DNA of 64,000 nt, from contig NW_026252105.1 of NCBI RefSeq assembly GCF_025399195.1, forward strand, positions 1-64,000. Reading direction: 5' to 3'. Below, in pieces: positions 2,239 to 64,000 of the stretch. The stretch is from Umbelopsis ramanniana AG. Lineage: Eukaryota; Mucoromycota; Umbelopsidomycetes; Umbelopsidales; Umbelopsidaceae. The number at the start of each line of letters is the position of its first letter. The first letter of the stretch is position 1. The notes below the pieces were generated by a model. That model had not been told where the DNA came from and made no database searches. It saw only the letters and a list, made by a program, of their open reading frames with translations. The position numbers were made by a program, and so were the translations under genes.

Positions 2239-5200
2239 TTACAAGGTTGCCGTACTAGAATGCATACAGTGGTTCCTTATGGCAGCCACTAGACGCTCCA
2301 TTATCAAAGGCTTCGTAAGGTAGTCCTCCATACCGTTTTGTTCCGACGCTTTTCGCGCAATTGCTCTCACATCAGCTGTCAATGCAAATATGGGCATTCT
2401 GTTCAGATTATCTGTAGCTTCGATATGGCGAATGCGTGCCGCTGCTTCAGGGCCATCACACTGATAATCATGGAGTTAGGATAAAGCCATGGCGTTCAGA
2501 AAAAGCATAGCATGAAATTTACCTTGGGCATGTGATGATCGAAAATTGCAAAAGAGAAATGATCTCTTTTACTGGACGTAAATATATTTATAGCCTCTTC
2601 TCCATCCTTCACACTTTCAACTGCAAATCCAAGTTTTTGAAGCTGTCTAACGAGCAGTTTCTGCGCAACGGGGTTATCTATGGATTGGTGTTAATAAACC
2701 AGGTAGTTACGATGGCAATTGCATTACGCATATATACCTTCTGCAATCAAAACATTGTTGTGTGTACTAATCCAAACTTCTTCCTTCACAGTCCAGAATG
2801 TTTTATTCCTCGACCCTGAACTTGGATTTGGTTTGGTTTCTTCCTTTACTTCCCGTTGGGATATCGGTACCGATAGTATTTCCAATAGAGCTTTCGTGAA
2901 AACCTCTCTGCGAAGCGGCTTAGTTATTCTGGCGCTGGGTGTATACTCCTTCCAGTAATTTTCATCTCCAAGTAGTCTACGGTGCCAATCAACAGAGGAA
3001 TGATATAAAACTATTGTTTCGCAGGTCAGCTTTTTTGTTTTGATTAGCGATTGGAGTTCCTCACAAAGACCTGGCTGTTGTATCAATGGCAGATCTATAA
3101 TCAACAAATCGATACTGTGACAGTCTGAAAACAGATCATTTGTGAGTTCTTTCACAGTAATTGTCAAATCTGGCGTCATTGATTGGACCATCTTCGCAGT
3201 TGGTAGGTGTGTAGTGGCCAGAAGAATTTTGTTGCTGCTGAGCTTTTTCAAATGAGAGTTCGACCTTGTCAACTGCGTGGGATAAACGCATTTAACTTGA
3301 ACGGTAAACCAAAAGGTTGAGCCTTTGCTCTTTCCTTCAGATATCACTCCTATTGAACCAGACATGAGTTGTATCAACTGCAAACAGATTGAAAGACCTA
3401 GTCCAGTTCCACCGTAAAGCCTAGTTGTACTGCCGTCGACTTGAGCAAAAGGCTCAAAAAGACCTTTTTGCTGTTCAGGAGCAATTCCAATACCAGTATC
3501 AATGACTTCAAAACGAAGAGTTGCATACACGCCATCCTGATGTGTATCTCTGCTATCAAGCTGACAATTCACCTGGACATCTCCATTTTTTGTGAACTTG
3601 ATGGCATTACCTATGAGATTGAGGAAAATTTGTCGTAGTCTAGCAGCGTCGGCTAATACAGTACTCGGCACCTGATGGTCGACAGAGTATGTTACATTGA
3701 CATTGTTTTGTATGGCCAACGAAGCCATAACATCAATGGCGTCAGCAATAACGTCAGGTACACTGGTGGGGCCAAGGTCTAGTAAGGCTTTATGCGCCTC
3801 AAGCTTACTGAAATCCAGTAAATCGTCTATAATCTTCAGTAACATTTGACAAGATTCTTTGGCGGTTTCAACGATATCCAACTGCTCATCGTCTAAATCA
3901 GTTTCCGTTAACAGTGATATCATGCCGTAAAACCCAGCAAAAGGCGTTCGTAGTTCATGCGATATGGTCGCCAAAAAGTTGGATTTGGCTCTATTCGCCT
4001 TTATAGCTGCCTCTCTGCTTTCTTTGGCGTCTCTCAAAGCAATTTGCTGCCTCTCGATCATCTTTGCGTTATCCTTCATAGCGCCTTGAAGACTGTTGAA
4101 AAGCCTTGCGTTGGTGACGGAGATGCCAATTTGCCTAGTCAGAGCCTGTAATGATCTTACTTGTCTTCCTGATAGGTACTTTTGGTAAGTTTCGATGAAG
4201 ACACATCCTATCAATACCCCTTTGTAAAGAATTGGCGTGCAAATTGCAGACTTGATAGAGCAGTATTCATCCAAGAAGGTTGTTCTTGTCATCGAGTCTG
4301 TGACAATTGTCGGCTCGGAAACTTGCATGGTATGGAGAGCAATACGAACCAGAACATGGTCTATAGAGCTTTCTAACCTTTCTGGAGGAGATAGATATCT
4401 GCAGCCAGAAGTTTTAGAACCTTTGCCCACAATGTTCAATTCTGTGCCATCCTTGACGATAATGACACCGCTATCTGCGCCTGAGCTTTCCAGAATTACT
4501 TCGAGCATTTGCTTCATGAGCAAGTCAAAATTCATCTCACTGGATATAATCTGACCACTCTTGAGAATAGAAGCCAGATCAGCAATTTCCAAAGACATCA
4601 AGTTTTCGTCTGTTTCCCCATATTGAAAAGATTCAGTAGATTCCTTTGCACTTGAACGCTCAACGTTTATATCAACTCTGGCAAATTCAGTCTGAACTGA
4701 GACTTCTATAGGCAAGGAATCTATCAATTCCAAATCCTTGTGATAACCTCGTAATTGACGAGCTTTTCCATATGAGCCGTGAGCACTATAAGCCGACAGT
4801 GCTTTTTGTAGCATAGCCTCGGCTACGAAAGTGTTATCTTGTCGTATATGATGTTCGCCAAGCAGCTCATAAAACAATGCAATTTCGACGTTCCAGCCAC
4901 CGGCTCGAGCCAATTTCAAAGCCTTTTCGTAATGTTTTTGTGAGATGTGTAGTTGATTGTCCAAAGAGGCCAGCTCTGCATCAAGAGCAATCACATACAT
5001 CTGATAGTTGATAGGCGATATCTGCGACCATTCTTCAATCAATGACTTGTTTACACGAATTTGCTCCATGTATCGCACCCGCACATCATCCGCGACTGTT
5101 TTCTGGTGCAATTTTCGAATGAGCGAAAGGCTGAAATAAAAAAGCATCCAACGAGTGTGACGATGACATGGCTGGCTGTCCAAAATGTTGAAGCATTTAA

Positions 5201-59684: not shown

Positions 59685-60810
59685 TCGTTCACCGGTGTAT
59701 CTGGTAGCAGTTGTTCCAGGTGACTGTCAATACGTCTACTGAGTCGATCCATCCGTCATCGATATACCAGCGAAACTGACTCCAAGCCGATTTTGCTTTT
59801 TTTTAAACTCGAAACTAAAACTCATGCTTTACATACAAATAATCAAATACTGTATATGACTTATCTTCTATTGCTCAAGTATCTGGCGTGATTCCTCAAA
59901 ACAGTTGTGAGGACATGTGTAGGACACATAATAACATCCAAACGAATAAATTAATACACCACTTTTCATTTGCTCAACTTTTTCTGAAAAAGCAATATAG
60001 TGCTGTTCTTGATGAAAGCGGGTGAACCAAAGTGCCATTCAGTGTTAACGTGGAAAGCGATATTTGACGAAGCGAAGTTAGAGATGGTTGCCAAGCCATT
60101 TGTCCTAGCATGTCAGGTACCGAGTGATCTCTGTGAGCGGACGTTGTAGCGTTCATCTTTACATTGTGCATTCTATGCTGCCGAATGGATGGTGCATGAC
60201 TCAAAATTTTTGCACGGTAACATTGACTAATATAAAAAAAAAAAAGTGAACTCAGCTTTAAGTTCTTAATGCAAGTTCTGTGGGTCGAGCAGGAGCCATG
60301 AAAGAATGACCTCAGAATCGTACATTACCGCATGCGGAACTTAATTTCTATCATCAATGGCCCGGACGATGTATAAAAAAATTCAAGTACAGATGGAGCT
60401 ACTGCGAGAGGTGATGATGACTACGATAAGAAGTTTTCTAACTTATATCATTTGAATACCATACCATCTGTTTAAGGTAACCAAGGTCAATATGTCACGG
60501 AGGTAAGGACAATATCCAAGCAAAATTTTCTCCGGTGTGTACAATGCTTAATTTGTGGCGTGCAGAATGGTTAAAGTGGTTGATGAGCAATCAAAAAGCT
60601 TGAGTAAAGTATGAAAGACGAGTTGGAATACCCCGTGCGCGGATTATGAATGAAAAGCACTGTAATTTGGCTGTTCCTGGCTTGCTTGCCGTCCCGATAA
60701 CTATTCCAAATGGGGTCTGAAACACACTGTCATTTTTTTATATTTTATTTTTTTTCTTTGGTGGTGCTCACCGCTTTTCTATCTCTTCTTCCCATTTGAA
60801 TGAACCTCAT
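59685..60810. other. Spacer between membrane protein and arrestin genes
   Basis: About 1.1 kb of AT-rich sequence with no supported gene. A TATAAAAA-like box is seen near 60371-60378 and an A-rich run near 60230; the arrestin promoter should lie here. Confidence 0.4.
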
Positions 60811-62073
60811 ATGATCCGTTTACTATCAAAAAACACAGTACATATTGATCTTGTTGAACCCGTCGTCTACCTGAGAGGATCGCATCAAGATGATACCCAT
60901 ACTACAGTCAAAGGGGCTGTTATCCTCGACTTACAGGATTCCACCTTGATCAAGAATATCACAGTTCGGTTGCTGGGACAATCTAACACTGCATGGGAAG
61001 AAGGTGGCCCAACAGGTGTGGGAGGTCAGCAGAGACGATTTCAGAGCTCCAAAACATTTATCGATTCGATCATACCCATTTATCCAACTGTACAATCAGA
61101 GGCCGAGCGACTGATGGTCTTATCACCTGGCCAATATCGATACCCATTTGAGTTATGCCTCCCAAACTCATTACCAGAATCTGTAAATTTTGAAGAAGCC
61201 AAGGTGAACTATAAGCTGATTGCTACACTCGAAAAAGAGAAACGACAAGGCAACAGCTTGCTTCCTGGATTTTTGCAAGCCAAAGTTGATACGGCGGAGC
61301 AGGAGATTAATCTGGTTCGACTAGCTTCAGATGCGGTTTTCACCAGCGACGGTTTGAGAGAATCAATCACAGCCCACCATCAACTACCCGACTTGTGTGA
61401 CTACCACATTACCGTAGAAAAGAGCGCCGTTTCCCCCGGTGGCATATTACCTGTTTCCGTCCGTGTGATACCACACCTTAAAGGCATGCGGATTGAGTAT
61501 GTCCATGTCCGACTTCAGGAACGTCGTGACTTAAAAATTCCTGAAAAACAAGTGCAGCACACCTTGGAAAAACAGCATTACTTACGACGACAAGATCAAG
61601 CCAAGATGAAAGTGAATGCTGATATCGATGATGTGGGCAGCTCTTGGGAGGACCGCATTGTGTTTGTTGTACCAGAGGCTGACAGTTGCCCTAATTTGCA
61701 CCATTCTACCATGGCCCATCCGGAAATATCAGTACAACACTGGTTGCAAGTTACCGTTTTGGTGGCCTACCCCGGTGAAAGCAACAAGCCGACACAACGA
61801 GCGCTAGTACTGGATACTAAAATCACAGTTCTCAATGAATGTGTTGCTGGTCACGCAGATGAGGATTGTGTTGCTTTACCCCAGTACCGAGAAACCTCGC
61901 GTGACGATCATCCCCGCAAAAACCATAATCTGCATCATTATTCTCATGGTGGATATTGTGCTTATGAACTCGTCGAACCTAATCCGCAACAGTCTGTCCG
62001 AGATGTTTTTGGCCTTCCTCTTCCTCCTCCGGCCTACGACGAACAAATCGATGTTCGAGGAGTCCCTATTTAG
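60811..62073 (+). CDS. Alpha-arrestin (arrestin-related trafficking adaptor)
   Basis: A single-exon protein of 420 residues. The ATG at 60811 (MIRLLSKNTVHIDLVEPVVYL) is chosen; the in-frame TTG upstream is not a start and the ATG at 60800 is out of frame. The N-arrestin fold opens with VEPVVYLRG and continues through VILDLQDSTLIKNITVRLLG and QYRYPFELCLPN. The C-arrestin fold contains YHITVEKSAVSPGGILPVSV and HWLQVTVLVAYP. The C-terminal tail has LPQY and PPAY motifs; PPxY binds the WW domains of Rsp5/Nedd4 ubiquitin ligases. Such proteins act as adaptors that direct nutrient transporters to endocytosis. Length and order match fungal ART proteins. It should be cytosolic or at membranes. Confidence 0.88.
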   Translation: MIRLLSKNTVHIDLVEPVVYLRGSHQDDTHTTVKGAVILDLQDSTLIKNITVRLLGQSNTAWEEGGPTGVGGQQRRFQSSKTFIDSIIPIYPTVQSEAERLMVLSPGQYRYPFELCLPNSLPESVNFEEAKVNYKLIATLEKEKRQGNSLLPGFLQAKVDTAEQEINLVRLASDAVFTSDGLRESITAHHQLPDLCDYHITVEKSAVSPGGILPVSVRVIPHLKGMRIEYVHVRLQERRDLKIPEKQVQHTLEKQHYLRRQDQAKMKVNADIDDVGSSWEDRIVFVVPEADSCPNLHHSTMAHPEISVQHWLQVTVLVAYPGESNKPTQRALVLDTKITVLNECVAGHADEDCVALPQYRETSRDDHPRKNHNLHHYSHGGYCAYELVEPNPQQSVRDVFGLPLPPPAYDEQIDVRGVPI

Positions 62074-62807: not shown

Positions 62808-63937
62808 TTACAATAATATGACTTTGCTGGTGATGTCCTGATTGGTGCAGAGTTTGTATGACTAAGTAGCGCAAACAGGAAATCGGCGGCAGCATGGACT
62901 GTCAATGGGACTAACCTGGTTACAATATGGGCAAAACCCGAATAGAACGTCGAAACTTTGCCGAGTCGTCGGCACTGATCGTAACCACTTTGAGGTGTGT
63001 CAACAAATACCCCAGGAAGATCACTGCATGTGAAGGTCAATAAAATAAAGCCATTACTTACTTCGTACATACAACGATGGTGGAATGCACGACCACATGT
63101 CTCGTTGTTGCAAATCAAAGATGGCGTTTGTTCCTTTTCTGGCGTCTTGGTGGTAGCACTAGTGTCGGGTGTGTTAAGGTGGTAGGCGTAGCAGATACCA
63201 CATTCAACGTCAGCCGAGTTGTCGCCAAAATTGTCCCTCTGTGGCAATTTTGGCAGTTCTAATACTCGAAGTATATTGTCGAGCAAGGGTTTGGACCCAT
63301 CCCTATTAGATAGGTTCAATCAGTATATAGTACATATTGCTGAAGACGATGCACATGCTTGGCCTGCTCCTCACCATGCTGCCATGTTGCGGTTTATAGC
63401 CTCCTTCCACACTGCAATGCGTGACTCGGCGCCAAATAACTGCAAGTCAGGTGCTTCACACGGGTTTTTGGTGTGTTTGATCTCAAGATGAAGTGTGCAG
63501 TGATGACCAAGTGCTAGTCGTCGCTGTGTATCTCGTCGAGTAGGCCGCACAGGGTCTAATACCCAGGAGTTGGCATCCAAGTTGTCCAATTCGTCAAATA
63601 GCTTTTGGTAGTCGTTCAATATGTCTCGGATGGCGGATATAACTGTGGGTATATTGGTCTTGACACTAAACGTTGGCATCTCGCACGGCAGCTCTGCAAT
63701 GACATTGAGCGGATATATATGACTGCCTTCAGGAAGATCGATATAAACAATATGCTGTCGACCAGATGAATCCCTGCAAGGTGTGTTAGCGAACATATAG
63801 GTCAGCATTCACTGGTGGGCTGGCACTCACCGTATTGATAGGTGGAAGGACTTCAAGCCTGGGTCCATGTAGACTACATTTTCCATTCCAATAGTATTCA
63901 GTTGACTGAGGAGTATTTCATATTGTTTTGTGGACAT
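62808..63937 (-). CDS. FANCL: FANCL, RING E3 ubiquitin ligase of the Fanconi anemia pathway
   Basis: Five exons (63937-63831, 63773-63375, 63302-63062, 62987-62916, 62861-62808) give 290 residues. The first half is the UBC-like RWD region with signature blocks SGRQHIVYIDLP, SWVLDPVRPTRRDTQRRLAL (usual WVLEP...), and VWKEAINRNMAAWDGS. The C-terminal RING has CGICYAYHL, CNNETCGRAFHHRCMYEW, RQSFDVLFGFCPYC, so the C4HC3-like zinc ligands of FANCL are present. FANCL is the catalytic subunit that monoubiquitinates FANCD2-FANCI for interstrand cross-link repair. Human FANCL has 375 residues; this one lacks the N-terminal ELF domain. The final exon (62861-62808) is the least certain. The gene is convergent with the arrestin gene. 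Confidence 0.9.
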
Positions 63938-64000
63938 GGTTGCGACTTTTTTCGAAACTTCTTGTTCCTGGGCTTCCGCGTTTTGGGATTTTCTCTCCTT

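Follow-up and report, generated by a model that had tools for sequence, protein, structure and literature searches.

A full-length FANCL-type gene of Umbelopsis ramanniana AG crossing the edge of an analysed contig window

Gene structure at the window edge

The window analysed here, positions 1 to 64,000 of contig NW_026252105.1 of the fungus Umbelopsis ramanniana AG (Mucoromycota, Umbelopsidomycetes; 64,000 nucleotides), carries at its extreme end a minus-strand gene, assigned below to FANCL, that crosses the edge into the adjoining contig DNA (Table 1). A first-pass annotation made from the window alone had described positions 62808-63937 as a spliced minus-strand coding sequence with the WVLDP, RRLAL and CGICYAYHL blocks and a complete RING, which our analysis bears out, and had read it as a reduced FANCL of about 290 residues. 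The reading frame upstream of the start methionine chosen there (window 63937) is open to the window's last base, and therefore the contig beyond the window was read (segment L002, contig C19, 61000-69000; where it overlaps the window, the two sequences are identical). Two further exons were found in this DNA, with the frame kept into the ELF domain. The completed model comprises seven exons and 384 codons plus the stop, has GT-AG borders in all six introns, and is identical in 384 of 384 residues to the deposited "hypothetical protein K450DRAFT_235550 [Umbelopsis ramanniana AG]" recovered by the protein search, whose label is hypothetical or RING-type domain-containing and not FANCL. Counted from the exons, the methionine at 63937 is residue 103 of the full protein; the sequence from this methionine onward is 282 residues long. 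An unspliced ending of exon 6, which has an open frame, was dropped as the C-terminus; the deposited protein carries the spliced ending with exon 7.

The annotation had also noted no obvious N-terminal ELF domain. This domain is encoded by exons 1 and 2, just past the window, and is recognized by the Pfam model FANCL_d1 (PF09765) at residues 5-84 (E 2.9e-15, 56.5 bits versus a cut-off of 23.8), so that the description as a reduced form falls. The gene looked shortened because the window ended mid-gene, and the apparent truncation is a window boundary artefact. A truly reduced, ELF-less FANCL of ~282 residues, made from the internal methionine at 63937 as the sole or an alternative product, is very improbable. 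Such a methionine does exist, several plant entries of 286-294 amino acids, some labelled isoform X2, likewise lack FANCL_d1, and so does P0002, a metagenome relative (jgi, 281 amino acids, 70% identical) annotated from the equivalent methionine. Against this, the two upstream contig exons supply an in-frame ELF and the deposited protein contains both, and on these grounds the ELF-less form was rejected. The contig that carries P0002 measures 2638 bases, and the annotation there has possibly missed the same first exons.

Domains, contact residues and partner proteins

In addition to FANCL_d1, the 384-residue protein contains the central URD, a double RWD (PF18890, PF18891), matched by FANCL_d2 at residues 106-198 (E 5.9e-9) and FANCL_d3 at residues 196-293 (E 1.1e-22), both above their curated cut-offs, and a C-terminal FANCL_C RING (PF11793) at residues 302-380 (E 6.4e-25, 87.7 bits versus a cut-off of 27.3). 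The genome search gave a single FANCL_d3 locus. The FANCL gene signal is far beyond chance. Human FANCL (7kzp_L; also 6sri_q) has the same order of ELF, URD (d2, d3) and C-terminal RING at nearly equal length, shares 31% identity over 354 aligned columns (108 identical) and has the main E2-contact residues in common with the fungal protein, which differs in a longer RING loop after CGICYAYHL.

Residues were compared in alignment A1, which holds 18 of 27 homologues, and in a smaller comparison of 6 of the 27 with the human protein; the VIA-align 2 comparison concerns mainly residues 102-198. The eight cysteine and histidine positions that bind zinc in the RING are invariant in the 18 aligned sequences. 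In human FANCL, I309, Y311, E340, W341 and P360 are described in the text of PMC3979106 as binding or selecting Ube2T, and all five equivalents are identical in the fungal protein.

The pathway partners expected in the first-pass annotation, FANCD2, FANCI and a UBE2T-type E2, are all encoded in the same genome. The UBE2T candidate, a hand-joined model, is 66% identical to the human protein over residues 38-130, its best PDB matches are six UBE2T sequences well ahead of other E2s, and it keeps R6, R9, R60, P62, F63, C86, P100 and N103 (human numbering). For FANCD2, six exon stretches were matched, each scoring above cut-off, and for FANCI two stretches. The positions of human FANCD2 K561 and FANCI K523, which we take to be the acceptor sites in human, are lysines in conserved RK motifs (numbering from 6vaa_B and 6vaa_A, respectively); around K523 the human LVLRKAMFA corresponds to the fungal LILRKGLFA, in which the lysine is kept. 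Loss of the FANCI acceptor lysine (K-to-Q) was ruled out by the 6vaa_A numbering.

The UBE2T candidate shows UQ_con at 9-149 and no further Pfam match at E <= 0.1. Its C-terminal tail is unusually long: in the model, ~267 residues follow the UBC domain, versus ~45 in the human protein of 197 residues (5ngz_A).

Table 1 Features of the predicted FANCL gene and its putative partners; exon coordinates beyond 64,000 extend the window numbering into the contig
Feature	Location	Strand	Content
FANCL exon 1	64369-64301 (L002:3370-3302)	-	Outside window; residues 1-82 with exon 2, ELF
FANCL exon 2	64240-64064 (L002:3241-3065)	-	Outside window; residues 1-82 with exon 1, ELF
FANCL exon 3	63831..63997	-	Residue 83 to split codon 138; ELF end, linker, URD start
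FANCL exon 4	63375..63773	-	Most of URD (FANCL_d2/d3); WVLDP and RRLAL blocks
FANCL exon 5	63062..63302	-	URD end and first RING part (CGICYAYHL ... FHHRCMYE)
FANCL exon 6	62916..62987	-	RING, WLRSVPTTRQSFDVLFGFCPYCNQ
FANCL exon 7	62808..62837	-	C-terminal residues and stop codon; C-terminus matches deposited protein
UBE2T candidate	C20:99290-100780	-	Hand-joined model, 416 residues
FANCD2	Contig C23		Six matched exon stretches
FANCI	Contig C63		Two matched stretches

Weighing the assignment to FANCL

The gene structure, the domains, the conserved zinc ligands and principal E2 contacts, and the presence of the E2 and of substrates with their acceptor lysines together suggest, with a probability of about 95%, that this is the gene for FANCL in Umbelopsis ramanniana AG and that it encodes a full-length 384-residue ELF-URD-RING E3 ubiquitin ligase. 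Recognition of a fungal FANCL orthologue from raw sequence in the first-pass annotation was right, as was its prediction of the pathway.

Several observations count against this assignment. At the RING interface, the fungal protein has E and N in place of human D306 and S363, and on the side of the E2, UBE2T S5, R99 and S101 are replaced by N, V and A; according to the text of PMC3979106, binding and ubiquitination are still possible when S5 or R99/S101 of UBE2T are changed. The human URD patch formed by L248, F252, L254 and I265 reads A, Q, F and E, three of the four not hydrophobic, in a region where the alignment is weak; the same alignment gives E and V at human M247 and E217, and shows human W212 and L214 as kept. 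Mutation of this patch in human FANCL is reported to weaken FANCD2 binding and to cut ubiquitination to 47%, and F252 and I265 are described there as less well conserved (passages of PMC7273913). The patch is also variable in the other fungal and the plant and algal rows of the residue comparison, and it was not taken as family-defining. Finally, the whole-chain TM-score between the predicted model and FANCL chains is only ~0.5, with a root-mean-square deviation of 15-17, so the relative placement of the domains is not established by it.

The diverged URD patch could also be read as a sign that the gene is a decaying FANCL pseudogene. This is hardly credible for a locus with seven open exons, GT-AG introns and invariant zinc ligands, in a genome that still encodes the E2 and the substrates. 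Least likely of all is another RING-RWD ubiquitin ligase merely resembling FANCL: generic RING models (zf-rbx1, zf-RING_2) match weakly and below their cut-offs, and one of ten Foldseek matches of the predicted model at E <= 0.001 is non-Fanconi (8aaf_e, yeast RQC complex), but that match is far poorer (E 6.4e-4, TM 0.18), no non-FANCL RING or RWD family passed its curated cut-off among the 13 Pfam families at E <= 1, of which only the four FANCL models did, and the PDB search at E <= 0.001 gave six distinct sequences, every one of them FANCL, the best aligning residues 5-380.

The protein search returned 27 homologues at E <= 0.001. The closest named homologues belong to Gigaspora, Dentiscutata and Syncephalastrum, followed by plants, algae and unnamed environmental entries. 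The fungal FANCLs of Gigaspora rosea (P0003), Dentiscutata heterogama (P0004) and Syncephalastrum racemosum (P0005) have the same domain set where complete, at only 36-37% identity to the Umbelopsis protein. A tree was built from 25 rows, namely 23 of the 27 homologues and two PDB-derived sequences, with P0015, P0024, P0026 and P0027 excluded as partial, odd or divergent. Five fungal rows group in it with a support of 83/80, under the starred level, which fits vertical descent without arguing strongly for it; long branches lead to Galdieria, Syncephalastrum and P0021.

Putative role and the wider Fanconi pathway

From these sequence comparisons, we infer enzymatic activity, complex formation and a role in repair for the fungal FANCL. 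Its RING would most likely hold the UBE2T orthologue, whose gene lies on another contig, and the FANCI-FANCD2 pair would most likely be engaged by its URD and ELF; in this way a single ubiquitin would be attached to FANCD2 (and FANCI) in the repair of interstrand cross-links. The ELF is described as carrying a ubiquitin-binding surface (text of PMC4543658). A much more speculative proposal, which we consider improbable, is that FANCL and UBE2T dispense with most of the animal core scaffold when acting on FANCI-FANCD2 and that the substrates dock away from the human URD patch, perhaps aided by the UBE2T tail.

Outside these four proteins, genome searches gave no match to FANCA, FANCE, FAAP100 or the MHF-binding part of FANCM (PF03511, PF11510, PF15146, PF16783), in a search that introns hinder and that did not include FANCB, FANCC, FANCF, FANCG, FAAP20 or USP1; absence of the core subunits is not shown, because the control genomes also gave no match. 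A DUF3337 domain, which we take to be the C-terminal domain of UAF1/WDR48, was matched in the genome at E 1.5e-28, and a VRR_NUC domain (FAN1-type nuclease) was matched weakly (E 1.1e-4). If the core scaffold subunits are truly absent, the four-protein set would offer a compact system in which the contribution of the scaffold could be tested.

The view in the first-pass annotation that Fanconi components are thinly recorded in fungi is out of date. Barua and colleagues surveyed 183 fungal proteomes in 2024 and recovered 32 of the 40 reference proteins; for early-diverging fungi they put forward a minimal pathway with FANCL, UBE2T, FANCD2 and FANCI (text of PMC11061109). FANCL is named in the main text of that paper for Mucor lusitanicus, Lobosporangium transversale, Rhizopus delemar, Allomyces macrogynus and Entomophthora muscae; for transcripts of Umbelopsis isabellina, the main text names FANCD2, UBP1, REV1 and two UBE2T, and not FANCL. 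It was the only publication joining Umbelopsis and the Fanconi pathway that our literature search found. The gene described here is an ordinary and complete orthologue of FANCL, in a lineage whose pathway had already been described. It adds one more well-formed FANCL-UBE2T-FANCD2-FANCI set, from the Umbelopsidales, in agreement with the minimal pathway proposed in the text of PMC11061109, and a protein deposited as hypothetical gains the name FANCL. The chief value of the analysis is a correction, namely that a gene crossing a window edge can pass for a reduced form.

The FANCL gene is flanked by two others. An arrestin-domain gene at window 60721-62073 (plus strand), with Arrestin_N and Arrestin_C above cut-off, is convergent with it. 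Beyond the window edge, a provisionally modelled gene for a protein with a Myb-like DNA-binding domain (L002 ~3549-4856, plus strand) stands head to head with FANCL, and its start lies a little less than 200 bases from the FANCL start codon.
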